A stretch of DNA of 32,515 bases from Hyphomicrobiales bacterium (GTDB lineage: Bacteria; Pseudomonadota; Alphaproteobacteria; Rhizobiales; Beijerinckiaceae), in assembly GCA_028290705.1 (NCBI GenBank), contig JAQGJH010000040.1, positions 1-32,515 on the forward strand, in the 5' to 3' direction. Every line of letters begins with the position of its first letter. The stretch's first letter is position 1. A model generated the notes under the pieces. The model was not told where the DNA came from. It saw only the letters and a list, made by a program, of their open reading frames with translations, and made no database searches. Positions 2,060 through 26,615 of this stretch are shown here, piece after piece. Both the position numbers and the translations under genes were made by a program.

Positions 2060-2325
2060 ACGCCGCCTCCCGGTGAGGCCCGCGAAACTAACAGATGCGT
2101 GCAAGGAAGAAAGCGAGTTGGCCGTTCCGGCGCCCGTCGGGTGTGGCGCAGATGCTGCGCCCGCTCTCGATGGGACGGTCAAATCCAGATTGCGGTGCAA
2201 GACCCGCCGGCCCGCCCCCCCGGCGAGATTGCCAAGATGACCGGCGGCCCCCATCCTGCGGGCGAATCGACGGCGTTTGGCCGCCTCACGGCGCAGACGT
2301 CCGCCCGCAAGATCAGGACGTGACC
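2060..2325. other. Divergent intergenic region, MFS gene / cckA
   Basis: This 266-bp gap separates the divergent starts of the MFS gene and cckA, so it should hold both promoters. I see no clear -35/-10 pair and no CtrA box. The one structured element is a perfect 7-bp inverted repeat with a 3-base centre, GGCGCAG-ATG-CTGCGCC, at 2145-2161. Upstream of cckA, AGGACGTGACC just before the ATG is a plausible ribosome binding site. Confidence 0.4.
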
Positions 2326-6336: not shown

Positions 6337-6649
6337 GAAGCCGCACATGTGGAAGGTCCCCCCACGCGGCCGGGTTCGTCCAACTTCCCAGCCTTGCCCG
6401 CCTCGTGACGCAGCGGAGCCTTCCCGGCGGGAACACGCCCCCGGCGCTCTCCGGCCCTCTTCCCGCCACGTCGCCTCACCTCTCGACAGTCTTGTGCGTC
6501 GCGGCTAGAACGGGCGCGGCTCGTCAGGGCCGATTTTTGCATGTCTCCCTCGTGCGACGGCGTGCCATCATCGCTCTGTCTCGAGCCGCAGAACGGCTTT
6601 GCTGAACCTCCCGGAGATCCGGGAACGCGACGGGAAACGAGTGCCAGAT

Positions 6650-9322
6650 ATGAGCGGCGTCAACGAGATCCGGTCCACCTTCCTCGACTTCTTTGCGGCC
6701 AACGGCCATCAGGTCGTGGACTCGTCGCCCCTCGTGCCGCGCAACGACCCGACGCTGATGTTCACCAATGCCGGCATGGTGCAGTTCAAGAACGTCTTCA
6801 CCGGCGTCGAAAAGCGCCCCTACAGCCGCGCCACGACCGCGCAGAAATGCGTCCGTGCCGGCGGCAAGCACAACGATCTCGACAATGTCGGGTACACGGC
6901 GCGCCACCACACCTTTTTCGAGATGCTGGGTAACTTCTCCTTCGGAGACTACTTCAAGGAAGAGGCCATCACCCTCGCCTGGAAGCTGATCACCAAGGAG
7001 TTCGGGCTCGATCGCAACCGGCTGCTCGTGACCGTCTACCACACCGACGATCAGGCCTTCGACCTCTGGAAGAAGATCGCGGGCTTCCCCGACGAGCGAA
7101 TCATCCGCATTCCGACCTCGGATAATTTCTGGGCCATGGGCGACACCGGCCCCTGCGGACCCTGTTCGGAGATTTTCTACGACCAGGGCGAGAGCGTCGC
7201 GGGCGGTCCGCCGGGCAGCCCCGACGAGGACGGCGACCGATTCCTGGAATTCTGGAACCTCGTCTTCATGCAGTACGAGCAGGTCGCGCCCGGCGACCGC
7301 GTCGAATTGCCGAAACCCTCGATCGATACCGGCATGGGCCTCGAGCGCATGGCCGCCATCATGCAGGGCGTCACGTCGAATTACGACATCGACATGATGA
7401 AGGCGCTGATCCGCGCGTCCGTCGAGGCGACGGGCGTGGCGGCCGACGGCGAGCGCGCCGTCAGCCATCGGGTCATCGCCGATCATCTGCGCGCCTCGTC
7501 CTTCCTCGTGGCCGATGGCGTCAACCCGTCGAACGAGGGACGCGGCTACGTGCTGCGCCGGATCATGCGCCGCGCCATGCGGCATGCGCAGATTCTCGGG
7601 GCCAGGGAGCCGGTCATGTGGCGCCTGGTCCCCGCGCTGGTGCGCGAGATGGGCGCCGCCTATCCCGAACTCATCCGCGCCGAAAGCATCATCACCGAGA
7701 CGCTGCGGACCGAGGAGACCCGTTTCCGCACGACGCTCGCGCGCGGCCTCGCGATCCTCGACGATGAAACGCGCGATCTGGGTCCGGGACAGCGGCTTTC
7801 GGGAGAAACCGCTTTCAAGCTCTACGACACCTACGGCTTCCCGCTCGACCTGACGCAGGATGCGCTCCGCGCCCGGCAGATCGACGTCGACACCGCCGGC
7901 TTCCAGGCTTCCATGGAACGCCAGCGCGCCGATGCCAGAAAAGCATGGTCGGGATCCGGCGAGGCCGCGACCGAGACCGTCTGGTTCGGCATCCGCGACC
8001 GCGTCGGCGCGACCGAATTTCTGGGCTACGGCACCGAAAAGGCCGAGGGCGTCGTCCAGGCCCTTCTGCGCGATGGCCGCGAGGTCGAGAGCCTGTCGCC
8101 CGGCGAAACGGGCTTGATCGTTCTCAACCAGACGCCCTTCTACGGGGAATCCGGCGGCCAGGTCGGCGACACCGGCATCATGACCGCGGCCGGCCTGCGC
8201 ATCCGCATCACCGGAACGCAGAAGAAGCTTGGCGACCTCTTCGTCCATGAGGCGACGATCGAGGACGGCCGCGTCGCTCCCGGCATGGCGCTGGAACTCA
8301 CGGTCGATCACGACCGCCGCGGCTCGATCCGCGCCAACCATTCGGCCACGCATCTTCTGCACGAAGCGCTACGGCAGGTGCTCGGCGATCACGTCGCCCA
8401 GAAGGGATCGCTGGTCGCGGGCGATCGTCTGCGCTTCGATTTCACCCATCCGAAGCCGATCAGCGACGGTGAGCTGGCCCAAGTCGAGGACATCGCCAAC
8501 CGCATCGTTTTGCGCAACGAACCGGTGGTCACGCGCGTCATGGGCGTCGAGGATGCGATCGAGTCGGGCGCCCGTGCACTGTTCGGCGAGAAATATGGCG
8601 ATGAAGTCCGTGTCGTGTCGATGGGCACCCTGGACGGCGGCGACAACGGTCCACGCCCCTTCTCGGTCGAACTCTGCGGCGGAACGCATGTCCAGCGCAC
8701 CGGCGACATCGGTCTCGTCACCATCGTGGCCGAGAGCGCCGTCGCCTCCGGCGTTCGCCGGCTGGAAGCCAAGACGGCCGATGAAGCCCGCCGTCACCTC
8801 AACGCGGAGGCACGCCGCCTGAAGGACGTCGCCACCCTGCTGAAATCGCCCGCCGACGATGCGGCCGAGCGGCTGGCGTCGCTGATCGAGGAGCGGCGCA
8901 GGCTCGAAAAGGAACTGTCGGACGCGCGGCGCAAGCTCGCCATGGGCGGCGGCGGCTCGGGCGCTCCGGATTCGGTGCGTGACGTCGCCGGCATCAAACT
9001 CTTCTCCCGTGCCGTCACGGGCGTCGAGATGAAGGACCTGAAGTCGCTGGCCGATGAAGCCAAGCAGTCGATCGGGTCTGGCATCGTCGCCATCGTGGGC
9101 GTCTCAGCCGACGGCAAGGCCGGGGTGGTCGTCGGCGTCACACCCGACCTCACCTCGCGCTTCAACGCCGTCGAACTCGTGCGCATCGCTTCCGACCGCC
9201 TCGGCGGAAAAGGCGGCGGCGGCCGTCCCGACATGGCTCAGGCCGGCGGGCCGGATGCCGACAAGGCCGAAGAAGCGCTGTCGGCCATCGCCGATGCCCT
9301 GGCGGCCGCGCCGGCAGTCTGA
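6650..9322 (+). CDS. alaS: Alanine--tRNA ligase
   Basis: 890 residues, the usual full length for this class II synthetase, which charges tRNA-Ala with alanine and edits mischarged Ser and Gly. The N-terminal catalytic domain has [24 protein letters not shown] and [18 protein letters not shown]. The editing domain carries the zinc site HSATH (His564, His568) and CGGTH (Cys676, His680). The C-terminal part (about 725-890) includes a helical stretch and the Gly-rich [16 protein letters not shown] of the C-Ala/DHHA1 domain. I chose the ATG at 6650 ([15 protein letters not shown]), the normal family start; a GTG lies nine bases upstream and the open frame reaches 6599. A strong terminator follows. 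Confidence 0.97.
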
Positions 9323-12923: not shown

Positions 12924-14456
12924 ATGAGACGCCCGTCGTATCCGCCGATCTCCGGAAGTCCAGTGCCTCTGCTTTCCAACCTCACCCAGGAAGCGTTCAT
13001 CGCCGCCCGCAGCCTCGCCGATTACGTCGGCGGCACCGGCCTCCGGCTGGGCGTCACCGGCCTGTCGCGCGCCGGCAAGACGGTCTTCATCACGGCGCTC
13101 GTCGAGGCCCTGCTCGCCGCGGGCCGCCCCGCCGCGCCCGGCCGCCGCAACCCCCTTCCGGTCTTTCGCGTGCATGCCGAGGGGCGGCTCATGCGAGCCA
13201 ATCTGGAGCCGCAACCCGACGATGCCGTTCCGCGCTTCGCCTATGAGAATCACCTTGCGTCCCTGACTGGCGGCGAAGGCGGGCCGGACGCGCGCCACTG
13301 GCCGGAATCGACGCGGCGTATCTCGGAACTGCGCCTGACCCTCGAGTTCGAGCGCAAATCGGGCTGGCGGTCCGGCTCGTCCTCTCTGACGCTCGACATC
13401 GTCGATTATCCGGGGGAATGGCTGCTCGACCTGCCGCTCCTGTCGAAATCCTACGCGCAATGGTCGCAGGAAACACTCGAGGCCAGCGCCGCCGCCGCCC
13501 GCGCGCCGCTGGCAGCCGATTGGCGCGGTTACCTCAAGACGATCGACCCGGCAGGTCCCGCCTCCGAGGACATTGCCCGCAAAGCCGCAGAACTTTTCAC
13601 CGCCTATCTGCGGGCCTCGCGCGCCGACAAATATGCGCTCTCGACCCTGCCGCCCGGCCGCTTTCTCATGCCGGGCGACCTCGAAGGCTCGCCGGCCCTG
13701 ACCTTCGCGCCCCTGCCCACCGAAGGCGGATCGCCCTCGGGCTCGCTCGCCGCCATGATGGAGCGGCGCTACGAAGCCTATAAAACCCACGTCGTCAGGC
13801 CGTTCTTCCGCGATCACTTCGCCCGGCTCGATCGTCAGATCGTGCTGGTGGACGCGCTCTCCGCGCTGAACTCGGGCCCGGCTGCGGTGCGCGATCTCGA
13901 AACCGCCATGACCGACGTGCTGATGGCCTTCCGGGCCGGGCGCGCCTCCTTCCTCACCACGCTGTTCAGGCCGCGGGTCGACCGCATCCTCTTCGCGGCC
14001 ACCAAGGCCGACCATCTTCATCACACCAGCCACGACCGGCTCGAGGCGATCCTCCGGCACCTCACCGCCCGCGCCATCGCGCGCGCCGAAGGGGTCGGCG
14101 CCGAGGTGGACGTGATCGCCCTCGCGGCCGTGCGGGCGACACGGGAAGCCTCCGTCCGGCAGGGCCGCGAGACGCTCGACGCCATCGTGGGGACGCCTCT
14201 GCCGGGCGAGACTGTCGGCGGCGAGACCTTCGACGGCGCCCAGGAAGTGGCGATCTTCCCCGGCTCGCTGCCGGCCGATCCCCGCACGGTTTTCCGTGGC
14301 GACGCCCTGGCGATCCCGGAAGGCGAGGCCGATTACCGCTTCGTCCGCTTTCGCCCGCCGGTCCCGCAGGTCGACGCATCCGGCGGCTTCCAGCCCCTGC
14401 CGCACATCCGCCTCGACCGCGCTATCGAATTTCTCTTCGGAGACCGAATGGCATGA
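12924..14456 (+). CDS. ycjX: YcjX-family (DUF463) P-loop ATPase/GTPase
   Basis: 510 residues. The P-loop GLSRAGKT lies at about 46-53 inside RLGVTGLSRAGKTVFITALV, the hallmark of the YcjX family. LDIVDYPGEWLLDLPLL is the switch/Walker B region, and FAATKADHLHHTSHDRL gives a TKAD element resembling the G4 (NKxD) motif. YcjX is a dynamin-like or stress-linked NTPase of unclear role, often beside YcjF and, in enterobacteria, phage-shock genes; no psp genes are visible here. The start is uncertain: a GTG at 12962 (VPLLSNLTQEAF) would also give a complete domain. The YcjF gene begins 61 bp downstream. Confidence 0.9.
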   Translation: MRRPSYPPISGSPVPLLSNLTQEAFIAARSLADYVGGTGLRLGVTGLSRAGKTVFITALVEALLAAGRPAAPGRRNPLPVFRVHAEGRLMRANLEPQPDDAVPRFAYENHLASLTGGEGGPDARHWPESTRRISELRLTLEFERKSGWRSGSSSLTLDIVDYPGEWLLDLPLLSKSYAQWSQETLEASAAAARAPLAADWRGYLKTIDPAGPASEDIARKAAELFTAYLRASRADKYALSTLPPGRFLMPGDLEGSPALTFAPLPTEGGSPSGSLAAMMERRYEAYKTHVVRPFFRDHFARLDRQIVLVDALSALNSGPAAVRDLETAMTDVLMAFRAGRASFLTTLFRPRVDRILFAATKADHLHHTSHDRLEAILRHLTARAIARAEGVGAEVDVIALAAVRATREASVRQGRETLDAIVGTPLPGETVGGETFDGAQEVAIFPGSLPADPRTVFRGDALAIPEGEADYRFVRFRPPVPQVDASGGFQPLPHIRLDRAIEFLFGDRMA

Positions 14457-14501: not shown

Positions 14502-14527
14502 GCCATGACTGATCGCCATGACTGATC
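14502..14527 (+). repeat. 13-bp tandem duplication over the ycjF start codon
   Basis: CGCCATGACTGAT occurs twice back to back (14502-14514 and 14515-14527). The second copy holds the real ATG of the YcjF-type gene. The first copy places an ATG at 14505 in another frame, which reads six codons and stops at a TGA that overlaps past the real start. Confidence 0.9.
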
Positions 14528-15564
14528 GCCCGTCCGAGCGTACGCCCCGCCCGCGCGCTTTCCGCCTTGAAGATGCGGACCTTGGCGCGCTGGCGCCGGA
14601 GCGCGACCGCATCGTCGTGGAGAGCCAGCCGGACGTCTTTGCACAGCCGGACGACGAAACCCGCGATCAGGAAGAGATCGTCGAGTCGGCGCAGAAAAAG
14701 GGCATCGTCGCCCGCTCCCTCATGAGTTGGGGCGGCCTGTTCTGGTCGGCGGCGTTCGGCCTCGTCACCCTCGCGATGGGGCTCTGGTTCGACAGCCTCC
14801 TGGCCAATCTGTTCGCCCGCACACCGGCCCTGGGCTGGATCGGCGTGGCACTGATCGGCGCGCTGGTTCTGGCGCTGCTCGTTCTGGCAGGCCGCGAAGT
14901 TTCGGGCGTCCTGCGCCAGAAGCGGATTGGCCAGATGCACATCGCGCTGGCGCGGGCCCGCGAAACGGACGACACGGCGGCGGCCCGCACTCTGGTGCGC
15001 GATCTGACCGCGCTTTACGCCAGCCGCCCCGATACCGCTCGCGCTCGCGCCCATGTGCTCGATCTGACCCGGGAGATCGTCGACGGCCGCGATCTCATCG
15101 ACATCGCCGAGCGCACTCTCGTGATGCCGCTCGACCAGACCGTGCAGCATGAAATCGCCCGCGCGGCGAAGCGCGTCTCGGTCGTGACGGCCATCAGCCC
15201 GCGCGCCATCGTCGACCTGCTCTTCGTCGCCGCCCAGGCCTTTCGTCTCGTGCGACGCATCTCGGAGATTTATGGCGGCCGGCCCGGCATGGTGGGTTTC
15301 CTGCGCCTGCTCCGGTCGGTCGGCGCGCATCTGGCAATCACCGGCGGCATGGCGGCGGGCGACAGCCTCGTCCAGCAGGTTCTCGGCCATGGCATCGCGG
15401 CCAAACTCTCGGCGCGGCTCGGCGAAGGCGTGCTCAACGGCATGCTGACCGCCCGCGTCGGACTCTCCGCCATGGCGGTGTGCCGGCCCATGCCGTTCGC
15501 GGCCGAGCCGTCACCCGGCGTCAAGGACGTGGCGCCGTTCCTGTTCCGCAGCGGCGAGCCCTGA
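14518..15564 (+). CDS. ycjF: YcjF-family (DUF697/TIGR01620) membrane protein
   Basis: 348 residues. A charged N-terminal region of about 60 residues is followed by two membrane segments, around 74-96 (WSAAFGLVTLAMGLWFDSLL) and 103-125 (WIGVALIGALVLALLVLAG). A helical region and the DUF697 C-terminus follow (ISPRAIVDLLFVAAQAFRLV, then RISEIYGGRPGMVGFLRLLR). This is the usual partner of YcjX and its order here is standard. It is an inner membrane protein of unknown biochemical role. It ends 5 bp from the stop of the convergent ferredoxin reductase gene, with no terminator visible between them. Confidence 0.88.
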   Translation: MTDRPSERTPRPRAFRLEDADLGALAPERDRIVVESQPDVFAQPDDETRDQEEIVESAQKKGIVARSLMSWGGLFWSAAFGLVTLAMGLWFDSLLANLFARTPALGWIGVALIGALVLALLVLAGREVSGVLRQKRIGQMHIALARARETDDTAAARTLVRDLTALYASRPDTARARAHVLDLTREIVDGRDLIDIAERTLVMPLDQTVQHEIARAAKRVSVVTAISPRAIVDLLFVAAQAFRLVRRISEIYGGRPGMVGFLRLLRSVGAHLAITGGMAAGDSLVQQVLGHGIAAKLSARLGEGVLNGMLTARVGLSAMAVCRPMPFAAEPSPGVKDVAPFLFRSGEP

Positions 15565-15569
15565 ACGCC

Positions 15570-16631
<1,062 letters not shown>

Positions 16632-16952
16632 TCAGCCCTGCCGCTCGGGCGTCGAGACCACGAGCCCGTCGGTCTCGCCCGTGACCCGGATCTGGCACGA
16701 CAGTCGCGACCCCGTGCGGACGTCGAAGGCGAAGTCGAGCATGTCTTCCTCCATCGGCTGGGCCGGAGGAATTTTCGACACCCAGGCGTCGTCCACATAG
16801 ACGTGGCAGGTGGCGCAGGCGCAGGCGCCGCCGCATTCGGCCTCGATGCCGGGAATGGAATTGCGGAGCGCCGCCTCCATCACGGTCGAGCCCTCCTCGG
16901 CGGAGACCGAGCGGGATTGTCCGGTGGAATCGATGAAAGTGATCTGGACCAT
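16632..16952 (-). CDS. 2Fe-2S ferredoxin, FdVI/adrenodoxin type
   Basis: 106 residues. The cluster ligands are Cys40, Cys46, Cys49 and Cys86 (C-x5-C-x2-C-x36-C) in ECGGACACATCHVYV and SRLSCQIRV. Cys44 is an extra cysteine inside the loop. The spacing and the segment PMEEDMLDFA fit the vertebrate/adrenodoxin-like group (R. capsulatus FdVI), which serves Fe-S cluster assembly or P450-type oxygenases. No isc/suf or P450 gene is in the window. GAGAG precedes the ATG. Co-transcribed with the reductase just downstream, its likely electron donor. Confidence 0.92.
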   Translation of the reverse strand: MVQITFIDSTGQSRSVSAEEGSTVMEAALRNSIPGIEAECGGACACATCHVYVDDAWVSKIPPAQPMEEDMLDFAFDVRTGSRLSCQIRVTGETDGLVVSTPERQG

Positions 16953-17048
16953 GGCGAAGCTCTCGTCACGCGAAAAGTCGTTTGCCCGGCCGCAGCCGCG
17001 CAGTCGCGTGTCGATAGCCGATTGTAGCGCGCTTGGCGAGATCGCCCG

Positions 17049-17465
17049 TCAGGCGAGAACGTCGCGGATGGACGCGCGGGCGATCTGGACTTCCTCGACC
17101 AGGATCTGCAGCGCGGTCGCCAGCGCGCCCGCCTCGGCATTTTGCGCCATCATGGCTTCATAAGCTTCGGACGCAGCCGCCACCCCATGGGCGCCGACCG
17201 CGCGGGCCGAGCCGGTGAGCGTATGGGCGAGATCGCGCGGCCAGGTTGGGTCCGAATGCGGCTTCAAATGAGTGAGTCGTTCGATGACCTGGCCCGACTG
17301 GCGGTCGAACAGCGCCAGAAGCTCGGTCTCGAGCTTCTTATCCCCAAGTGATTGCCGCGCGAGATAGACCAGATCGAGGGCGGGTCCAGCATGGCGCCGG
17401 CGCTGGGACTCGGCCTCGGCCGGAGCTTCGATAAATGCCAAGCTTCTGGCAAAACGCTGAGACAT
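17049..17465 (-). CDS. Orphan Hpt-domain protein
   Basis: 138 residues from the ATG at 17465, chosen because GGAG lies seven bases upstream; the open frame reaches 17648 but that part is not protein-like. After a charged start, the Hpt helical bundle spans about 30-130, with LDLVYLARQSLGDKKLETEL and the phospho-acceptor His81 in AHTLTGSARAVG. The usual HxLKG lysine is Thr84 here. Hpt proteins relay phosphate between receiver domains of hybrid kinases and response regulators. This is a single-domain Hpt and not ChpT, which has a HisKA-like fold. Its kinase partner is unknown. Near-consensus CtrA sites lie 120-210 bp upstream. Confidence 0.8.
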   Translation of the reverse strand: MSQRFARSLAFIEAPAEAESQRRRHAGPALDLVYLARQSLGDKKLETELLALFDRQSGQVIERLTHLKPHSDPTWPRDLAHTLTGSARAVGAHGVAAASEAYEAMMAQNAEAGALATALQILVEEVQIARASIRDVLA

Positions 17466-17587
17466 TCGGTTGCTCCATGCCCGCGGAAGACGCTGCGGCC
17501 TGCTTCCGTCGCTTCTGGCATTATGCCTTCGACCCATGGCCAAGCCGTTGTGGGTCGTGGCTGTCGTTGAAAGATCCTTCAACATGG

Positions 17588-17603
17588 TGAAGGCTCCGTT
17601 AAC
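17588..17603. promoter_or_regulatory. Near-consensus CtrA site 1 (TGAA-N7-TTAAC)
   Basis: One base differs from TTAA-N7-TTAAC. It lies in the 309-bp divergent gap between the Hpt gene and the GPR-like gene, about 120 bp upstream of the Hpt start. Inference only. Confidence 0.4.
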
Positions 17604-17658
17604 GACGTTTGCCGATGCGGCACGGCCTAGGTTTCTTCGCGTGCGCATCTTCTATACA

Positions 17659-17674
17659 TTGACGATTAGTTAAC
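17659..17674. promoter_or_regulatory. Near-consensus CtrA site 2 (TTGA-N7-TTAAC)
   Basis: One base differs from TTAA-N7-TTAAC. It lies about 100 bp upstream of the GPR-like gene and immediately follows TATACA (17653-17658), a possible -10 element. If that promoter is real, bound CtrA would sit over the start of transcription and would be expected to repress. Inference only. Confidence 0.45.
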
Positions 17675-17725
17675 GCTTGCGCTCCGCTCGAGGCCGATAG
17701 ACGGGGTGGGACGCTTGCGGCAGGC

Positions 17726-17747
17726 CACCGGCAGGTTTTTGCCGGTG
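17726..17747 (+). promoter_or_regulatory. Leader hairpin before the GPR-like gene
   Basis: CACCGGCA and TGCCGGTG form a perfect 8-bp stem with loop GGTTTT, ending 27 bases before the ATG. It has no T-run after it. It lies in the expected 5' leader, upstream of the ribosome binding site AGAGG (17763-17767), and could affect translation or transcript stability. Confidence 0.5.
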
Positions 17748-17774
17748 AAGTGGTGTGTTTGAAGAGGCGAGACG

Positions 17775-20700
17775 ATGGCCACACAACCCAAGGCTCAGGA
17801 TCCGACTGCGGCGGCGCTGTCGGCGATCGAGGAAGCGCTCAATCTGACACAGGCGCCCGAGCCAGTCGGACCTCCCCCCGCCGCCGAGGCCGAAAGGCCG
17901 GCGGCGCAACCGGAACGCTCCCCCCAGCATTCGGAACGCATCCCGGTCAAACTGCCCGAGATCAGTGAACGCGATCTGATTCCGCGTGCCCGCCAGCAGG
18001 AGCCGAGGCAGGACGCCCGGCATGACACGCGCCAGGAGTCGCGTGCCGACGTTCGCATGCCCGAGAGCCGCGCGCAGGAAAGCCGCACGCAGGAAAACCG
18101 CACTTCGGAGACGCGCGCGGACGCCAACGCCGAGGCGCGCGGCGCCGTGGCGCCTTCCTCTCCCGCCAACGACGATCGTCGCTCGGTCGGTCAGATCCTC
18201 CAGACCCTTCAGGTTCGCCCGAGTTCGCTGCCGCTCGTGGTGGCCGGCATCGCCTCGCTCGTCTGGGTGGGACTCGTCGGTCTCTACGCGACAGGCCTCG
18301 CCGCCGCGACTCCGCAGGATCTCGTCATGATCGCCATGGCGGGTCTGGGCCCGGTGCTGTTCTTCTTCGTCACCGCCATGCTGATGCGCCGCGCGCAGGA
18401 AATGCGCCTGACGGCCCGTGCCATGACGGAAGTCGCCATGCGGCTGGCCGAACCCGAAGCCATGGCGACCGAACAGGTCGTCACGCTCTCGCAGGCCATC
18501 CGCCGCGAGGTCGCCTCCATGGGCGACGGCATCGAGCGCGCCCTGGCGCGCGCCAGCGAACTCGAGACCGTGGTTCGCTCCGAGGTCTCGAACCTCGAGC
18601 GCTCCTACACCGACAACGAACGGCGCATCCGCTCGCTCATCGACGAATTGTCGTCCGAGCGCGAAGCCATCGTGATCAACGCCGACCGCGTGCGCCAGGC
18701 CATCTCCGGCGCGCACGAGGCGCTCTCGCGCGATCTCGAAGTGGCCAGCACGTCGATTGCGGACCGCGTCGGCGACGCAGGCACGCGCGTCAGCTCGCTG
18801 CTCGGCGAGAAGGGCGAGGAAATCTCGATCACGCTCGCCCGCACCGGCGACGATCTGGTCGAGCGCATTTCGGCCCATGGCGGCGACATCGTCGGCCGCC
18901 TGGCCGAGACCGGCGAGGACGTGACCGCCAAGCTCACCAGCGCGACGGAAGTCGTCACCAATGCTCTCGGCGGCCGCATCGATGAACTCGACCAGCGTCT
19001 GAAGTCGACGGGCGAATCGCTCGTCGCCGATCTGGCGACCCGCGGCAACGAAGTCGCGGCCCGCATCGACGAAACCGGCGCCCGCATCGCCGACACCATC
19101 TCGTCGCGCGGCGAAGACCTGTCGGGCCGTCTCGCCGCCACCGGCGAGAAGATCGACCAGACCATCACGGTCTACGGCAGCGAACTCGAGGAGCGGCTCA
19201 GCGCCACCGGCGACCGCATCACGACCTCGATCGCCGAACGCGCCAACACGATCTACGATCTGTTCCACACGTCTGGACACGAGCTCGCCTCGCAGCTCGA
19301 AACGCACCATGTCCAGCTGCGCGACCATCTCGAACGCGAAGCCACGGATCTCACCAGCCGCTTCGCCAATTCGGCCGAGGATGCGATCAACGCCATCGCG
19401 ACCCATGGCGATCGCGTCAGCGAACATCTCGCCGAGCGCCTCGGCGCCTTCGAGGCGACCGTGCTGTCGCAGGGCGGCCGTGTCACCGACACGCTGGCCG
19501 AGCGTCTCGCCATCTTCGAGGCGAGCGTCATCCAGAACGGCGACCGGATCAGCGGCGAACTCGCGGAGCGCCTCGTCGCCTTCGAAAACACCATCGTGAC
19601 GCACGGCGAGGTCCTCACCGGCCAGATCGCAACGCATTCCGACCGCTTCACCAGCGACGTCGCGGATCGTCTCGCCTCGGTGGAATCGGCCTTCACGGTC
19701 CATGGCGCGGCCTTCCACGACCGCCTCGCCGAGCGCACCACCGAGACCGCCAACCTGCTCGAGTCGCGGGTTCGCGAATTCGACGAGCGCGCCGCCTCCA
19801 AGGCGCAGGACATCGCCCAGTCGCTCGACGGACTCATCTCCAAGATCGACAACGGCCTCGACGCCCGCGCCAAGGCGCTCAACGAGACGCTCGCCCACCG
19901 CGCGCTCGAAGTCGCCCAGGTCCTCGGCGACGGCGGCCGTCAGGTCACCAAGGCGCTCGACGCCAAGGCGGCCGAGATCGACGAGATCCTGCTGACCCGC
20001 TCCACTGCCCTCACCGAGACGCTTTCGGCCAAGGCGCAGGAGATCAACGACACGCTCGGCGGCCGCGCGACCGAAATCGCCGACACGCTCGACACCCGCA
20101 TCACCACCTTCGAAGAGCGCGTCGTCGGCCGCCTCAACGCCGTGTCGAGCGAACTCGACACGCGCGGCCGCGCCGTCGCCGACACGCTCGGCGCCAAGGT
20201 GGCGGAGATCGACGACACGCTGGCGGCCCGCCTCGGCGACATCAACTCCACGCTGGAGCGTCACGGCGACTCGCTGGCCGCGTCTCTCGACACCCGGCTC
20301 GAGCAGCTCACGACGCGTCTGCGCGAACGTGGCGAAGCCCTGCACGAGACGATCGCGTCGCGGTCCCTCGACCTGCAGAACCTGTTCGAGACCCAGGGGC
20401 CGATGCTGGTCGAACTGCTTACCTCGCGGGGCGGCGACATCGTCAACGAACTCGCCAGCGTCGGCGAAGTCGTCACCCATGCCATCGAGAACCGCGGCTC
20501 GGCCATCGTGCAGCATCTCGGGCAGAAGCAGATCGAGCTCACCTCGGCGATCGACCAGTCGTCGGTCGGCCTGCGCAACGCCATCGAGCATTCGGCCCAT
20601 AACTCGGTCGACGTGCTGCTCTCCACCAAGGACTCGCTGCGCGACGAGATCGTCGGCGTGCTCGACCAGCTCTCGCAGACCAGCAGCATCCTGCAGCAGG

Positions 20701-22106
20701 TCGTGGGCCAGGCCGGCGACAATCTCTCGAACATCGAGAGCGCCCTCTCGGCCCGCGTCCAGAACTTCGACACGGCGCTGATTGCCGTCTCGAACCAGGT
20801 GAACGCCCTCTCGCAGACGGCCGAATCGACGCTCGGCAGCGCCGAGGCGATCGCCGGCCGCCTCGAAGCCTCCAACCAGGGGCTGTCGGCCATCACCCAG
20901 CAGGTCACCCGCACGCAGGGCGAACTCGACGCCGCGCTGGAGGCGCGCCGCCAGTCGCTCGAGACCATCCTGGCGGCCGTCGGCTCGCGCACGGAAGACT
21001 TCGACAACGTCATGCGCTCCTTCTCGGGCCTGATCGACGAATCCTTCCGCCGCGCCGAAACGCGGGCGCGCGAAATCGGCTCGTTCCTGTCGGACTCGAC
21101 CAACTCGGTCGTCGGCATGATCGACCAGCAGTTCGAGGAAGTGCGCGCCACCAGCGGCAAGGAGCGCGAGCGCACCGCTGCGGCGCTGCGTGCGGCTTAC
21201 GAGCAGGCCAATGCGGAGATGAACCAGATCTTCTCCTCGGCCATCGACCGGTTCAAGGCTTCGGCCGCCGAGATGCGTGGCGTGTCCGTCGAGATCCAGC
21301 AGGAACTCGAGACCACCCGCCAGGAACTGCGTCGCGGCGCCGTCGAACTGCCGCGCGAGACCGCCGAGCAGGCTTCGGCCATGCGGCGTGTCGTCGCCGA
21401 GCAGATCAAGGCGCTGAACGAGTTGACCGACATCGTTGCCCGCTCGGGACGCGCCTATGACGTCGCGGAGCCGGCCGCGGTCGTCCGCCGCAACGATCCG
21501 CCACGCCTGGCCGAGCGCACGGCCGAGACGCCCCGCGTCGAAGCCTCGTTCCGGCAGAGCGATCCGGTGCGCCCCGCCGAGCCTTACCGCGCCGAGGCCT
21601 TCCGCAAGGAAGAACCCGTCGTGGCTCGTCGCCCGGCGCAACCGGCTCCCCGCCCTGCCCCGGCCCCGGCGGCCTCCGAACGCGGCGCCGGCTGGCTGTC
21701 CGACCTTCTCGCCCGCGCCTCGCGTGACGAGCAGGAGAGCCCCCGCACCGCCGGAGCGCGCCCGCGCGCTGAACCGCTCGACCAGATCTCGCTCGACATC
21801 GCGCGCATGATCGACCACGACGCGGCCGTCGACCTGTGGGACCGCTACAACCGCGGTGAGCGCAACGCCTTCTCGCGCCGCCTCTACACGCCCCAGGGCC
21901 AGCAGACCTTCGACGAAATTCGCCGGCGTTATCGCGCCGACTCCGAATTCCGCGACACGGTGGATCGCTACACATCCGAGTTCGAGCGCCTGCTCGGCGA
22001 GGTCAATCGCGACGACCGTGACGGCATGCTGACCCGCACCTATCTCACCTCGGAAACCGGCAAGGTCTACACCATGCTGGCTCACGCGGCCGGACGCTTC
22101 GAGTAA
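17775..22106 (+). CDS. Giant 22-residue-repeat membrane protein, GPR/RgsE-like
   Basis: 1443 residues, the largest gene here. Residues 1-150 are disordered and rich in Pro, Glu and Arg. Two membrane segments lie at about 152-174 (LPLVVAGIASLVWVGLVGL) and 183-204 (LVMIAMAGLGPVLFFFVTAM). Residues about 205-1250 are continuous amphipathic helix built of 22-residue, apolipoprotein A-like repeats. A Pro/Ala/Arg-rich linker follows, then a compact C-terminal domain at about 1335-1443 (SLDIARMIDHDAAVDLWDRY, then TYLTSETGKVYTMLAHAAGR). This layout matches Growth Pole Ring/RgsE proteins of Hyphomicrobiales, which form a ring at the growing pole and are needed for polar growth; A. tumefaciens GPR is longer. 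Assignment is by architecture, not alignment. AGAGG lies seven bases before the ATG. A perfect terminator follows. Confidence 0.8.
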   Translation: MATQPKAQDPTAAALSAIEEALNLTQAPEPVGPPPAAEAERPAAQPERSPQHSERIPVKLPEISERDLIPRARQQEPRQDARHDTRQESRADVRMPESRAQESRTQENRTSETRADANAEARGAVAPSSPANDDRRSVGQILQTLQVRPSSLPLVVAGIASLVWVGLVGLYATGLAAATPQDLVMIAMAGLGPVLFFFVTAMLMRRAQEMRLTARAMTEVAMRLAEPEAMATEQVVTLSQAIRREVASMGDGIERALARASELETVVRSEVSNLERSYTDNERRIRSLIDELSSEREAIVINADRVRQAISGAHEALSRDLEVASTSIADRVGDAGTRVSSLLGEKGEEISITLARTGDDLVERISAHGGDIVGRLAETGEDVTAKLTSATEVVTNALGGRIDELDQRLKSTGESLVADLATRGNEVAARIDETGARIADTISSRGEDLSGRLAATGEKIDQTITVYGSELEERLSATGDRITTSIAERANTIYDLFHTSGHELASQLETHHVQLRDHLEREATDLTSRFANSAEDAINAIATHGDRVSEHLAERLGAFEATVLSQGGRVTDTLAERLAIFEASVIQNGDRISGELAERLVAFENTIVTHGEVLTGQIATHSDRFTSDVADRLASVESAFTVHGAAFHDRLAERTTETANLLESRVREFDERAASKAQDIAQSLDGLISKIDNGLDARAKALNETLAHRALEVAQVLGDGGRQVTKALDAKAAEIDEILLTRSTALTETLSAKAQEINDTLGGRATEIADTLDTRITTFEERVVGRLNAVSSELDTRGRAVADTLGAKVAEIDDTLAARLGDINSTLERHGDSLAASLDTRLEQLTTRLRERGEALHETIASRSLDLQNLFETQGPMLVELLTSRGGDIVNELASVGEVVTHAIENRGSAIVQHLGQKQIELTSAIDQSSVGLRNAIEHSAHNSVDVLLSTKDSLRDEIVGVLDQLSQTSSILQQVVGQAGDNLSNIESALSARVQNFDTALIAVSNQVNALSQTAESTLGSAEAIAGRLEASNQGLSAITQQVTRTQGELDAALEARRQSLETILAAVGSRTEDFDNVMRSFSGLIDESFRRAETRAREIGSFLSDSTNSVVGMIDQQFEEVRATSGKERERTAAALRAAYEQANAEMNQIFSSAIDRFKASAAEMRGVSVEIQQELETTRQELRRGAVELPRETAEQASAMRRVVAEQIKALNELTDIVARSGRAYDVAEPAAVVRRNDPPRLAERTAETPRVEASFRQSDPVRPAEPYRAEAFRKEEPVVARRPAQPAPRPAPAPAASERGAGWLSDLLARASRDEQESPRTAGARPRAEPLDQISLDIARMIDHDAAVDLWDRYNRGERNAFSRRLYTPQGQQTFDEIRRRYRADSEFRDTVDRYTSEFERLLGEVNRDDRDGMLTRTYLTSETGKVYTMLAHAAGRFE
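19428..19625 (+). repeat. Three tandem 66-bp units encoding 22-residue repeats
   Basis: Residues 552-573, 574-595 and 596-617 of the GPR-like protein each start with LAERL and share the pattern LAERL-x-x-FE-x3-V/I-x3-G. Units are exactly 66 bases. The DNA copies have diverged, so the period is held at protein level. They are the clearest of many such units; others start around KAQEINDTLGGRATEIADTL. Confidence 0.85.
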
Positions 22107-22133
22107 GCACCGGCTCCCGAGGTCCAAGACAAG

Positions 22134-22161
22134 AAAGGCGCAGCTTCGGCTGCGCCTTTTT
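22134..22161 (+). terminator. Intrinsic terminator of the GPR-like gene
   Basis: AAAGGCGCAGC and GCTGCGCCTTT form a perfect 11-bp stem with the stable tetraloop TTCG, followed by more T, 27 bases after the stop codon. A textbook intrinsic terminator. Confidence 0.92.
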
Positions 22162-22208
22162 CGTTGTGCGGCCTCCGAACGCAACCGGGCAACGCCGTCG
22201 CGCAGGCG

Positions 22209-22234
22209 CAAAAAAGCCGGCCCTGAGGCCGGCT
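22209..22234 (-). terminator. Intrinsic terminator of the MCE operon
   Basis: On the minus strand AGCCGGCC and GGCCGGCT form a perfect 8-bp stem with loop TCAG, followed by a run of T (read as A at 22210-22215). It lies 49 bases after the lipoprotein stop. The two convergent units thus have separate terminators about 50 bp apart. Confidence 0.88.
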
Positions 22235-22282
22235 CGACGAGATCGGGAGATGGGAGCGCCGTCCCGCGCTCTTTTGCCGGGA

Positions 22283-22918
22283 CTAGATGCGCGCACCCGC
22301 CCAGGCAACGATCTGGCGCAACACGTCGTTCGACGCGGCATCGAGCGCCGTCGTTGCCGCAGGCCCGCTCGAGGCGGAGCCCGGCGTCTGGGAGCGGAAG
22401 ATCTGCGCCGCTGCGATTCGGCCCTCGGGCGTCAAAACCTTGACGGAAATTTCCACCACGGCCTGACCGGTCGCGACGTCGATTTCGAAACGCCGAACAT
22501 CCCAGTTGAACGAGCGATCGGCCGACAGGCCCTCTCCCGGGCGGCCGACGGAGCGCATCATCCGGGCGTTCTCGAACGTCTGGATCATGCGCGTCTGCAG
22601 CAGGCGCGGAAGACGATCGCTCCACTGCGCTCCGGCCAGCACCGAGACCGCGCTCGGGCTGCTGCGCACGACGATGCGATCGCCATCGGTGGGCGCGGGC
22701 GCAGTCGGCTCAGGGATCACCAGAATACCGCGTAACGCGCGCGGCTTGAGACCTTCGCGCGGGGCTGAAATGTCGAAGGTTGCAAGCGGCGCGCTTCCGC
22801 AAGCGGACAGGAAGACGCTCAGCGCCGCAACGCCGGCCAGGCGGACGAGGGTCGACGCCAAAGGCCTGACGTCAGCACGAACCCGGCCCCATTTTGTCAC
22901 GGCAGGCTCGTTCACCAC
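22283..22918 (-). CDS. ABC-type transport auxiliary lipoprotein (PqiC/ABC_trans_aux type)
   Basis: 211 residues from a GTG at 22918, chosen because GGAG lies seven bases upstream; the frame is open to 22954, and a GTG at 22900 is another option. The signal sequence ends in lipobox LSAC with lipidated Cys40. The mature part has the family pattern: TFDISAPREGLKPRALRGIL, then RIVVRSSPSAVSVLAGAQWS, then DRLPRLLQTRMIQTFENA. Such lipoproteins accompany MCE transporters at the outer membrane side (PqiC, LetA/B partners). It is the last gene of the operon, 126 bp after the MCE gene, and is followed by a good terminator. Confidence 0.85.
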   Translation of the reverse strand: MVNEPAVTKWGRVRADVRPLASTLVRLAGVAALSVFLSACGSAPLATFDISAPREGLKPRALRGILVIPEPTAPAPTDGDRIVVRSSPSAVSVLAGAQWSDRLPRLLQTRMIQTFENARMMRSVGRPGEGLSADRSFNWDVRRFEIDVATGQAVVEISVKVLTPEGRIAAAQIFRSQTPGSASSGPAATTALDAASNDVLRQIVAWAGARI

Positions 22919-23044
22919 ACAAAGACTCCGGCGATCATGATTCTCAAGCAGCATGCCGCATCAGAACAGCAGCCCAGCTGACGACGCAAGCGGCGCCGTG
23001 TTGCTCATGTAGAGCTTTCACGGCGCTGCGCTTTTTGCGTCACT

Positions 23045-24355
23045 TTAACGGCCGCTATATTCTGGAACCGACGGTTTGCCGCCGAAAATGAGCTGCTGCG
23101 GGTTCTTGCCGAGCGAGCGAACCGTCCGGTTGATCTCGTCCAGCGTCCGCCGCCCATCGGTCGCCAGCGCCTCATATTGCTTCAGGCCCGGACCCGTGAA
23201 GCGATTGATGCCCGCCGTGATCTCCTTCGTACGCGCATCGAGATTGTCGGCGAGCTTGCGAATGGCCTTGGCGGCTTCGCCGACGTCCGAGAACATGCCT
23301 TCCGAACCCGGACCGCCGAGAAAGCCCTGCACGGACGCCAGAACGCCGTCGATCTTGTCAGCCGACGCATTGAGCTTCGCGGTCAACTCGGTCGCGTTCT
23401 TCATGATCGAGTCGGCGTTCGGGCTGTTGCGGTCGAGCACGGACGCGAAGCGATCGAGCGAGTCGATGGCGTTCCCGATTTTCTTCGGGTCGACCGCATT
23501 GGTGATGTTGGTCGCGCCCGTCAGCACGCCGTCGAGCTTGGCGGTCTGCGTCGACAGATCGCGAGCCACTTTCGCCGCGTCGGTGAGCAACCCGTCGATG
23601 TTGGTCTTGTTGCGAGCCAGCGAGGTCGAGAAATCCTCGACGTTCGATACGATGCTCCGCACCTTCTCGGCGTCGACGGACGACACCAGCTTGTCGAGCG
23701 TGCCGGTCAGGCCTTCCAGACGGGTCGCGAGCGGCTTGATGGTGCGGCCGAGATCAGCCATGCCGCCCAGGAAATCCTTCACGCCATCGGAATTGGCCGC
23801 CAACGCATTGGTGAAGACCTGCACGTTCTCGACGGTCTTCGAAATCGCGCCCGCATTGTCGCTCACCAGCGTGTCGGCCTTGTTCAGCAACCCGTCGACC
23901 TTCTGCGACAGGTTCTGCAATGTCTCGACCAGGTTCTGGAAGTCGGATCGCTCGGCGCGGATCTCGGCCATGTCCCTCGAGGTGGAGGCCAGCCGAGGCG
24001 CATCCGACGAACCACCGGTGAGCGCGATCGATCCGACGCCCGTCAGCCCCTGGTACTCGAGGCGGGCGCGCGTGTCGGTCTTGACCGGCGTACGCCGATC
24101 AACGTCGATGATCGCGTAGACTTCGCTGGGATCTGGAGCGAGGTCGATGGCCGAGACTTCGCCGACTTTCAGGCCGTTGAACAGAACCTGCGAACCGCGG
24201 GTCAGCCCCGAGACCGAACTCGAGAACACCACTCGATAGGTGTCGCGCCCCGACTGCTTGCTCGATCCGGAAAACCAGAAGACGAACATGAAGCCGGCCG
24301 TCACCACCGCGAGCGTGAAAGCTCCGATCAAGGCGTAGTTCGCACGCGTCTCCAT
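23045..24355 (-). CDS. mlaD: MlaD-type MCE substrate-binding protein
   Basis: 436 residues. One N-terminal membrane anchor at about 8-28 (ALIGAFTLAVVTAGFMFVFW) is followed by the MCE domain (about 38-115: YRVVFSSSVSGLTRGSQVLF, then NGLKVGEVSAIDL, then LEYQGLTGVGSIALTGGS). A long helical part follows (VETLQNLSQKVDGLLNKADT and similar). MCE proteins form hexameric rings in the periplasm and carry phospholipid between ABC transporter and outer membrane. At 436 residues it is much longer than E. coli MlaD (183), like other alphaproteobacterial and mycobacterial-type MCE proteins with a helical tail. Operon position after permease and ATPase supports the call. Confidence 0.92.
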   Translation of the reverse strand: METRANYALIGAFTLAVVTAGFMFVFWFSGSSKQSGRDTYRVVFSSSVSGLTRGSQVLFNGLKVGEVSAIDLAPDPSEVYAIIDVDRRTPVKTDTRARLEYQGLTGVGSIALTGGSSDAPRLASTSRDMAEIRAERSDFQNLVETLQNLSQKVDGLLNKADTLVSDNAGAISKTVENVQVFTNALAANSDGVKDFLGGMADLGRTIKPLATRLEGLTGTLDKLVSSVDAEKVRSIVSNVEDFSTSLARNKTNIDGLLTDAAKVARDLSTQTAKLDGVLTGATNITNAVDPKKIGNAIDSLDRFASVLDRNSPNADSIMKNATELTAKLNASADKIDGVLASVQGFLGGPGSEGMFSDVGEAAKAIRKLADNLDARTKEITAGINRFTGPGLKQYEALATDGRRTLDEINRTVRSLGKNPQQLIFGGKPSVPEYSGR

Positions 24356-24488: not shown

Positions 24489-25352
24489 TCAAGGGTGCGA
24501 ACGCCCTGCTGTATCACCACTTTCACGTCTTTGTGCACGCTCGCCGTGGAAGTAGGCCCGAAGCCACGGATGATCGAGCTTGAGGATTTCGGCGACGCTG
24601 CCGGCCGCGATCACGCGCCGTTCCGCCAGGGCGGCGATGCGGTCGCAGATCGAATACAGGCTGTCGAGATCGTGCGTCACCATGAACACCGTCAGGCCGA
24701 GCGTCTTCTGAAGCGTCGCGATCAATTCGTCGAATTCCGCCGCGCCGATCGGGTCGAGCCCGGACGTCGGTTCGTCCAGGAACAGAATTTCCGGATCGAG
24801 AGCCAGTGCGCGCGCCAAAGCCGCGCGCTTGATCATGCCGCCCGACAGTTCGGAGGGAAATCTCTCGGCCGCATCGGCGTTCAACCCGACCATCTCGATC
24901 TTGAGCAGGGCCAGTTCGTCCATGAGGTCCTGCGAGAGATCGAGATATTCGCGCATCGGCACTTGAATGTTCTGGCGCACGTTCAGGCCTGAAAACAATG
25001 CCCCGTGCTGGAACAGCACGCCCCAGCGGCGCTCCATCTCGCGATGGCCGCGACGGTCGAGAGTGTCGAGGTCCTGCCCGAAGACCTGGATGGACCCGGC
25101 GCGCTTTTTCACCAGCCCCAGGATGGTGCGCGTCAGGACGGACTTGCCGGTCCCCGAGCCCCCGACGAAGCCCATCACTTCGCCGCGACGCACGTCGAGG
25201 TCGAGATGATCGAGAATGACCTTATCGCCAAATCCGACCTGCAGGCCGCGCACGCTGATGATCGGCTCGCCGCCATGCGGCACGCGTCCCGCAGGCTCGA
25301 CCGGCACATGACGCGGAACGAGATCGTGGTCGACCGGCCGTGGATCCGCCAA
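24489..25352 (-). CDS. mlaF: MlaF-type ABC transporter ATPase
   Basis: 287 residues. Walker A is GGSGTGKS (about 64-71), the signature is LSGGMIKRAALARALA, Walker B is EILFLDEPTSGLDP, and the switch His is in MVTHDL. The family segment FQHGALFSGLNVRQNI is clear. MlaF powers lipid movement by the MlaFEDB-type complex at the inner membrane. I chose the TTG at 25352 because GGAG lies six bases upstream; a TTG at 25367 that overlaps the permease stop (TTGA) is the alternative. The frame stays open to 25628 inside the permease gene, which is shadow. Translational coupling to the permease is likely. Confidence 0.93.
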   Translation of the reverse strand: MADPRPVDHDLVPRHVPVEPAGRVPHGGEPIISVRGLQVGFGDKVILDHLDLDVRRGEVMGFVGGSGTGKSVLTRTILGLVKKRAGSIQVFGQDLDTLDRRGHREMERRWGVLFQHGALFSGLNVRQNIQVPMREYLDLSQDLMDELALLKIEMVGLNADAAERFPSELSGGMIKRAALARALALDPEILFLDEPTSGLDPIGAAEFDELIATLQKTLGLTVFMVTHDLDSLYSICDRIAALAERRVIAAGSVAEILKLDHPWLRAYFHGERAQRRESGDTAGRSHP

Positions 25353-25363
25353 GGAACTCTCCG

Positions 25364-26497
25364 TCAATATGCGATCGATGCGAAGAACATGGCGAACATT
25401 CCGTCCACCAGAATGACCATGAAGATGGATTTCACGACCGAAGCCGTGACCTGCCGGCCCAATGATTCGGCAGATCCCTGGGTCGCCAGGCCCTCCATGG
25501 CGGCGATCATCCCGATCACCAGCGCCATAAACGGCGCCTTGATGAGGCCGACCAGGAAGGTGTTCATGGCGATCGCGCTCTGCAAGCGCGCCATGAACAC
25601 TTCCGGGCTGATGCCGCCATAGAACCACGCGACCAGCAGGCCGCCGAAAATCGCCGACATGTCCGACAGGAAGGTCAGCAGCGGCAGGCTGATGATCAGC
25701 GCTAGAATGCGCGGCATCACCAGCACGTCGATCGGATCGAGACCCATCACCCGCAGGGCGTCGATCTCCTCGCGCATCTTCATCGAGCCGAGTTCCGCCG
25801 TGATGGCGGAACCGGACCGCCCCGCCACCATGATGGAGGTGAGCAGAACCGCAAGTTCGCGCAGCACCAGAATGCCGATGAGATCGACCGCGAAGGTCGC
25901 GGCGCCGAACTTCTGCAACTGGAAGATGCTCTGCTGCGCGACGATGCAGCCGACCAGGAAGTTGATCAGCGCGATGATCGGCAGGCCGCGAAACGCGAAG
26001 GTCTCGATGTGAAACACGACCGACGTGCCGCGAAACCGCGACGGGCTCACGATGGCTTTGACCATCGATGCCATGACTTCGCCCAGGAACGAGACGCCAG
26101 CCAGCAAGTCGCGCCCGAAGCTCACGACGTTCCGGCCGATGTCCGACAGAACGTCGATCAGCAGCGACCGCGACACCGGCTTCTCGGTCTTGAACTCGCG
26201 AAAATGGGCTTCTTCGATCAGGATCTCATATTCAGGCCGCGCCTGCGCGATGCTGGTGCGCGTGCCCGCAGCTTCCAGTTGCGCCCGGCAACGGCCGATC
26301 AGCCACGCCCCCGCCGTATCCATGCGGTCGACCTTCGCGAGATCGAGTACGGCATGCGACATGCCTTTCGCATCGGCCACGAGCCCCTGGGCGGCCGTCT
26401 CGAGCGACTTGGATGAGCCGATCGTCCAGGCGCCGCTGAGCGCGATGCGCAACTCGTCCTGGCTGCGTGCGCTGGAAAAAGCCGGTTCGGAAACCAT
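25364..26497 (-). CDS. mlaE: MlaE-type ABC permease with N-terminal STAS domain
   Basis: About 377 residues. The first 110 form a STAS-like domain (ELRIALSGAWTIGSSKSLET, then AVLDLAKVDRMDTAGAWLIG). The permease part follows with the conserved segments TFAFRGLPIIALINFLVGCI, ELAVLLTSIMVAGRSGSAIT and AELGSMKMREEIDALRVMGL, and about five membrane helices. In E. coli the STAS protein (MlaB) is separate; here it is fused, a common alphaproteobacterial arrangement. First gene of the MCE operon. The start is uncertain: I chose the ATG at 26497 (MVSEPAFSSARSQ); an ATG at 26572 adds 25 mostly basic residues, and neither has a good ribosome binding site. Confidence 0.9.
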   Translation of the reverse strand: MVSEPAFSSARSQDELRIALSGAWTIGSSKSLETAAQGLVADAKGMSHAVLDLAKVDRMDTAGAWLIGRCRAQLEAAGTRTSIAQARPEYEILIEEAHFREFKTEKPVSRSLLIDVLSDIGRNVVSFGRDLLAGVSFLGEVMASMVKAIVSPSRFRGTSVVFHIETFAFRGLPIIALINFLVGCIVAQQSIFQLQKFGAATFAVDLIGILVLRELAVLLTSIMVAGRSGSAITAELGSMKMREEIDALRVMGLDPIDVLVMPRILALIISLPLLTFLSDMSAIFGGLLVAWFYGGISPEVFMARLQSAIAMNTFLVGLIKAPFMALVIGMIAAMEGLATQGSAESLGRQVTASVVKSIFMVILVDGMFAMFFASIAY

Positions 26498-26615
26498 TGC
26501 GTCAGGGCGCCCTCGACGGCGGCGCGACGGGTGAGAACCGCGCGCACGGGGTGAACTTTCGCTTTCGTACATACGCGGCGCTCAACCGGAAGTCGAGTTC
26601 ACGCCTTCGCGTGTT

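Follow-up and report, generated by a model that had tools for sequence, protein, structure and literature searches.

The window analysed here, a 32,515-nt contig of a Hyphomicrobiales bacterium (JAQGJH010000040.1), carries a gene that, judged from its sequence, is a short member of the GPR/RgsE family, to which the Growth Pole Ring protein (GPR) of A. tumefaciens and RgsE of S. meliloti belong. From the sequence comparisons below we conclude that the gene is orthologous to rgsE and, via RgsE, to the gene for GPR, the link to GPR being indirect; this supports the identity that an earlier note on this DNA had put forward as likely from the layout of the protein. Our overall explanation, of which we are fairly confident, is that the gene encodes a short-form Hyphomicrobiales GPR/RgsE orthologue that would act as a polar scaffold, with a long helical array kept in register and with an Hpt-domain protein and an Mpc-type phospholipid-transport system as its partners. 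What should be new to the specialist is the 11-residue quantum of the array, a class-wide family with another repeat, coexistence with MreB and a conserved Hpt–gpr–Mpc gene order. The quantum, Hpt and Mpc results make the building, sizing and control of the growth-pole ring a testable question.

Orthology with RgsE and layout of the protein

A tblastn search of plasmid records led to a 3.7 Mb record of S. meliloti (L107, CP090106.1), in which a gene annotated 'kinesin' encodes a protein of 2089 aa, the same length as RgsE (SMc00190) in PMC7327166. The C-terminal domain of the window protein is 65% identical to that of the S. meliloti protein over 115 aa (E 1.3e-50); in the membrane-proximal N-terminal part the two share 43% identity across 147 columns. 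The earlier note had named resemblance of the C-terminal domain to GPR/RgsE as a test, and such resemblance is present. Upstream of gpr in the window and of rgsE in S. meliloti lie the same genes, YcjX, YcjF and a divergent Hpt gene (at 12742-13110 of L107), and RgsE likewise has two hydrophobic segments and a helical array, with a hydropathy period of 3.654. It is these identities, the shared upstream genes and the order of parts described for GPR that lead us to orthology. The two loci differ in their intervening and downstream genes: rgsE is followed by a transposase and cytochrome bc1 genes, whereas the Mpc operon lies downstream in the window. With 69% of the 2089 aa of RgsE, the window protein falls inside the length filter of PMC7327166, which kept RgsE homologues within 50% of that length.

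RgsE is 42% identical to A. tumefaciens GPR (PMC7327166). GPR itself (Atu1348, 2115 aa) we have likened to the window protein by description, not by sequence alignment; its order in PMC8262873, two membrane helices, apolipoprotein-like helices, a proline-rich region and the last 115 residues, is the layout found here (Table 1). It is ~670 residues longer than the window protein, and the suggestion that the shorter protein might differ in repeat number fits the variation in array length described below, which is real. RgsE is located at the growing pole, its depletion or overproduction leading to shape defects (PMC7327166), and the C-terminus of GPR is required (PMC8262873). By orthology, a scaffold function would extend to the window protein. 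The two helices would anchor it in the inner membrane with the array in the cytoplasm, copies would assemble at the growing pole and scaffold envelope synthesis there, as reported for GPR and RgsE, and the proline-rich tether would allow the C-terminal domain to reach its partners.

Table 1 Features of the window in and around the gpr/rgsE orthologue
Feature	Coordinates	Strand	Basis
YcjX-like protein (DUF463), shared upstream neighbour	12924..14456	+	PF04317; YcjX in L107
YcjF-like protein (DUF697, TIGR01620), shared upstream neighbour	14518..15564	+	Profile matches; YcjF in L107
Hpt-domain protein, divergent from gpr; start possibly later than 17648	17049..17648	-	PF01627; conserved upstream position
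Shared hpt/gpr start region, two GTTAAC sites 177 and 106 nt before gpr	17598..17774		GTTAAC conservation
gpr/rgsE orthologue, 1443 aa	17775..22106	+	ORF from ATG; PF01442; C-terminal domain compared with RgsE
Two hydrophobic, probably transmembrane, segments, residues 149-178 and 181-205	18219..18389	+	Hydropathy, 19-residue mean up to 2.29 and 2.26
Regular 11-residue array, residues ~330-920	18762..20534	+	Periodicity analysis; unit composition
Proline-rich linker, residues ~1258-1335	21546..21779	+	Read from translation; first 20 modelled residues mean pLDDT ~50
C-terminal helical domain, from residue ~1334	21774..22103	+	RgsE similarity; AlphaFold model
MpcA/PqiC-like lipoprotein (ABC_trans_aux), convergent with gpr	22283..22954	-	PF03886
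MpcD-like MCE protein	23045..24355	-	PF02470 MlaD over cutoff; TIGR00996 below cutoff
MpcF-like ATPase, ORF start probably later	24489..25628	-	PF00005
MpcE-like permease with N-terminal STAS	25364..26572	-	PF02405 and STAS; TIGR00056 over cutoff

The open reading frame (ORF) of 1443 residues given in the earlier note was borne out; its GC by codon position (0.71, 0.48 and 0.87) fits a coding frame in the surrounding DNA. It is overlapped by a longer antisense ORF (17670-22625, 1651 aa). That GC-rich DNA yields the longer antisense ORF, and that the genome is in draft form, with 148 contigs, might suggest an open-frame artefact or a repeat collapsed in the metagenome assembly. We find this scarcely credible, because in the related locus L002, which matches throughout residues 1-1443 and reaches 79% identity in the best segment, the array has the same length, 887 residues; the array of L003 has 861, and the plus-strand frame is conserved in other genera. 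With the protein of this frame as query, 224 related loci were found, of which the best 80 (L001-L080) were retained; this selection was by similarity to the window sequence, and Bosea and Microvirga are abundant in it. The closest relatives within these 80 are metagenome bins titled Beijerinckiaceae or Hyphomicrobiales.

As read from the translation, the first ~145 residues are enriched in polar residues and proline. They are followed by two hydrophobic segments, in agreement with the two N-terminal membrane helices that had been proposed, and the compact C-terminal domain, also proposed, appears as six helices when the last 134 residues are modelled with AlphaFold (mean pLDDT 82.3, pTM 0.71). 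Searches of Pfam and the PDB found no relative of this domain. The profile PF01442 (apolipoprotein A1/A4/E) matches the window protein in six stretches with 159.8 bits, above its curated cutoff of 90, so that the description of the repeat as apolipoprotein-like holds. No second place in the window's own genome exceeds this cutoff, and in 14 control genomes there were weaker matches in 12 and none over the cutoff. The apolipoproteins of PF01442 share the 11/22-residue periodicity of amphipathic helices with the window protein, which, unlike them, is bacterial and has membrane segments and a C-terminal domain of its own; the match may reflect repeat geometry alone.

There is also a weak match to the NCBIfam family ZorA2 at residues 978-1166 (20706-21272; E 4e-11, 42.1 bits), which similar helical tails may explain. 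Together with the interaction of TolQ and RgsE in a two-hybrid test (PMC7327166), this would suit a long-tail protein of the ZorA/MotA type, in which the helical tail transmits force or signal. We regard such a protein as very unlikely, given that the match does not reach the membership cutoff of 700 bits, that there are two hydrophobic segments only and that the upstream genes are like those of rgsE.

Array length and the 11-residue unit

The array is strongly periodic. Identity periodicity over residues 231-1230 exceeds that of 200 shuffles at lags 22 (z = 9.9) and 11 (z = 8.9), and likewise at lags 55, 44, 33 and 66, and the hydropathy period is 3.662 residues per turn (power 71.8, compared with a 99th percentile of 9.7 for shuffles). 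Within residues 330-920, two positions of the 11-residue unit are I, L, V, M or F in 98% and 96% of cases, and at another position Gly or Ala predominates (65%); on an 11-residue wheel, Arg flanks the hydrophobic stripe and the acids lie on the opposite face. The earlier note had described strict 22-residue units, three of them exact at residues 552-617. The 22-residue periodicity stands, but an 11-residue quantum describes the array better; and whilst the spacing of the three units is exact (LAERL at residues 552, 574 and 596), their sequence is not: at the DNA level, the period-66 repeat at 19428-19585 shows 70% matches.

We measured array length from a conserved point after the membrane segments to one before the linker, both anchors being present in 85 of 95 proteins. 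It ranges from 392 to 2136 residues over the 85 and is 1543 in RgsE, compared with 887 in the window protein. All 25 Bosea-like homologues have one and the same remainder modulo 11, with 18 distinct lengths between 1250 and 1701, and 16 of the 19 from Microvirga have a common remainder. For the 85 proteins together, the modulo-11 concentration reaches 0.574 in the array (p = 7e-13), compared with 0.103 in the linker and 0.179 in the N-terminus; in the controls, p was nominally 0.046 for the Bosea-like linker and 0.066 for the N-terminus in the full set of 85. The gaps in alignments agree with this. In 492 pairwise alignments of proteins at least 60% identical, 1795 of the 2089 array gaps of four or more residues were multiples of 11, compared with 47 of 1213 in the N-terminus and linker. 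The alignment of repeats itself favours gaps of this kind, a bias of which the test on anchor-to-anchor length is independent.

We infer that the register of the array is under selection from end to end and that the array acts as a single object, either a rod or a continuous surface helix. With less certainty, we propose that it would be one continuous straight object whose hydrophobic stripe must hold its register from one end to the other, so that changes in length would survive mainly where 11 residues, or three helical turns, are gained or lost. The quantised array length in relatives of the window protein predicts that changes of 11 residues are tolerated and others are not. A helix rises by 0.15 nm per residue, and from this general value the ~1050 helical residues of the window protein are calculated to span ~160 nm. 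GPR, with 1,700 helical residues, is put at about 250 nm, and its ring at 200 nm in diameter (PMC8262873).

Alternatively, the array might be an amphipathic helix of the apolipoprotein type, lying flat on the membrane or a lipid surface, the 11-residue unit being kept for lipid binding and not for a rod. The PF01442 match, the 11/3 helical period and the adjoining lipid-transport operon all suit such a helix, as does the lipid-related function for which PMC8262873 argues in the case of GPR; the arginine beside the stripe, with acids on the far face, would suit it too. The stripe is narrow, however, and its two large, strongly hydrophobic residues per unit fit helix packing somewhat better than lipid insertion. 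Most of the other-order relatives described below have another period and those scanned fall short of the PF01442 cutoff, and a surface helix would not need to hold its register over 1000 residues. On balance we consider the flat lipid helix a serious possibility, though one that we would not call probable.

Relatives across the class and coexistence with MreB

A profile of 38 C-terminal domains, searched against 289 genomes sampled from the class, matched in 113, of which 4 belong to the family of the window and 109 are labelled 'same class', a label that we read as meaning other orders. We inspected 41 other-order loci, 40 from these 109 and one Sphingomonas plasmid gene of 774 aa. At least two hydrophobic segments lie ahead of the array in 33 of the 41 and one in 6, the remaining 2 being cut; one of the 41 proteins (L171) has only 324 aa. 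Outside Rhizobiales, the available text of PMC7327166 names homologues only in Emcibacterales and Rhodospirillales.

Of the 141 loci, 94 from Hyphomicrobiales and 37 others entered the analysis of helical period; cut or short loci were dropped. In the other orders the nearest period is 25/7 in 28 loci, 18/5 in 6 and 29/8 in 3; in Hyphomicrobiales it is 11/3 in 78, 29/8 in 15 and 18/5 in 1. Several of the shortest Hyphomicrobiales forms (L110, L111, L113-L116, L119, L122 and L123) have intermediate periods of 3.62-3.634. None of the five other-order proteins scanned passed the PF01442 cutoff. All of these periods are near 3.6, unlike the heptad value of 3.5, and a nearly straight hydrophobic stripe would therefore be the property common to the family. 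In genomes of the window's own genus, second matches to the membrane part were seen at G001:C16:1963-2706, G014:C514:2107-2811 and G001:C28:69525-70007 (frames of 943, 913 and 634 aa); these are possibly paralogues with another array.

A search of 297 genomes of the order with TIGR00904 at E 1e-40 found MreB in 33, with scores above the family cutoff in 32, and the RgsE-type C-terminal domain is present in all 33. The domain was not matched in 6 of the 297 (G059, G089, G148, G165, G214 and G304), four of which fall in one genus (g65). Frame length differs between the two groups of genomes. Taking frames of at least 700 aa, those in MreB-bearing genomes (n = 29) measure 815-1498 aa with a median of 1093, and those in genomes without MreB (n = 244) 708-2940 aa with a median of 1891, 53 of the 244 being 1500 aa or less; these are lengths of open frames, not of curated starts, and 18 of 291 frames were dropped as shorter than 700 aa, four of them from MreB-bearing genomes. 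By family, the median frame is 1103 aa in 9 families with MreB and 1781 aa in 39 without (p = 0.0055). Frames longer than 1500 aa thus occur in the sample only without MreB, and short ones, such as that of the window, on both sides. The suggestion made in PMC7327166 was that, in Rhizobiales, homologues of Rgs proteins and of MreB exclude one another. The length filter of that paper may explain part of the discrepancy, 12 of the 29 usable frames from MreB-bearing genomes being shorter than 1045 aa.

That the same C-terminal domain occurs in MreB-bearing genomes and in other orders raises the question of whether the window protein could be a long helical membrane protein that has kept the ends of the family but has a role other than polar growth in this lineage. 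PMC7327166 itself allows that distant homologues possibly have another role. In the window's own genome TIGR00904 gave no match at E 1e-40, although this genome is only 74% complete and absence of MreB is not general to carriers of the domain; over 25 genomes of the genus, its own included, matches to the MreB family were weak and partial only. With no MreB seen there, and with a C-terminal domain so close to that of RgsE, we think such a different role unlikely.

Conserved neighbours of gpr

An iterated Hpt profile (three seeds) placed an Hpt-like ORF next to 75 of the 141 loci, always upstream; at least 1300 nt of upstream sequence was covered in 129 loci, from which all 75 come, and the 75 include the three seeds. 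Setting L154 aside, 73 of 74 adjacent Hpt genes are divergent from gpr, at a median distance of 213 nt. Pfam calls the Hpt domain in 48 of 50 of the gpr-adjacent proteins scanned, and the phospho-accepting histidine is likewise kept in 48 of 50. It is absent from the Hpt proteins of the close relative L003 (4507-4881) and of the Sphingomonas locus L108 (2619-2918). A further Hpt profile, made from gpr-adjacent genes (50 of the 75) and thus measuring the positional conservation of this orthologue and not Hpt proteins at large, matched in 250 of the 297 genomes, with no match at E 1e-10 in 47. The distances between neighbours were determined for 150 listed Hpt matches, 148 listed MpcA matches and 266 of 291 gpr matches. 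Among the 150 Hpt matches listed, 139 are on the gpr contig, 10 are on another contig and 1 is in a genome (G059) without a gpr match. All 139 on the same contig lie upstream of gpr within 10 kb, 117 of them divergent within 1.5 kb. The sequence GTTAAC occurs in 56 of 73 hpt–gpr start regions, compared with 2.7 expected from its locus-wide frequency, and these palindromes are a possible lead to the site of a shared regulator. An orthologous Hpt gene beside gpr in so many genomes points to phosphorelay input, and from its position the Hpt protein would couple the scaffold to a phosphorelay. A candidate phosphate donor is RdsA, an essential hybrid kinase of Rhizobium etli that affects the shape of the cell and whose gene lacks an Hpt gene in its vicinity (PMC9022086).

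Downstream of gpr, the window operon has the composition of an Mpc system, with an STAS permease, an ATPase, an MCE protein and a PqiC-like lipoprotein in the order E-F-D-A, the same composition and order as MpcEFDA of Brucella abortus (PMC12436622). In Hyphomicrobiales, MpcA or MpcD genes lie downstream of gpr in 76 of 95 loci, the window counted, and are convergent with it in 73. Among the 148 MpcA matches listed, from which a second one in G284 and that of G144 were left out, 98 are downstream of gpr within 10 kb, 75 being convergent within 3 kb, 30 do not share a contig with gpr and 9 are upstream of it. In other orders MpcA/MpcD-like genes are downstream in 9 of 41 loci, all 9 convergent; none were seen downstream in the other 32, nor in several short-form families, with mostly ~3 kb of downstream sequence covered. 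The neighbouring operon points to phospholipid transport as an output, and by its position Mpc could be a functional partner of the scaffold at the growth zone. In the open-licence literature we found no paper connecting GPR with Hpt or with MlaD/Mpc, and the available text of PMC12436622 mentions neither GPR nor growth pole, kinesin or synteny.

Several points weigh against parts of the overall explanation. A conserved neighbourhood is no proof of joint function, and most other-order loci are without an Hpt or Mpc neighbour. None of 19 Microvirga loci has an adjacent Hpt gene, and in S. meliloti there is no Mpc operon within 14 kb after rgsE. A stable complex of GPR with Mpc is not supported by the pull-down of Brucella MpcA, because this specifically identified only MpcE, MpcF and MpcD (PMC12436622). 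Most of the modulo-11 result comes from two genera, and lineages that are related do not count independently. Lastly, absences in the window's own genome are weak at its level of completeness.

The results can be drawn together into a wider proposal, which is tentative and as a whole rather doubtful. Across the class Alphaproteobacteria there would be one family of helical rods anchored in the membrane, older than the loss of MreB, and GPR would be its branch for polar growth. The ends of the protein would have been kept and the repeat would be specific to the lineage, 25/7 in many orders and 11/3 in most Hyphomicrobiales, where length would change in whole 11-residue steps and the array would serve as a cytoplasmic ruler, with Hpt exerting control and Mpc organised at sites of growth. 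If this were true, array length would predict the diameter of the ring, and the ring would be smaller in the window species.

Other genes of the window lie further upstream. Between YcjF and Hpt there is a pyridine-nucleotide-disulphide oxidoreductase (15570-16613, minus strand), and an overlapping antisense ORF (16017-17027), used as a tblastn query, found matches upstream of gpr in 47 loci; the oxidoreductase may thus be a frequent upstream neighbour of gpr too. The window also contains the cell-cycle kinase CckA at 2095-4833 (NF046020, 1227 bits) and alaS at 6599-9322.

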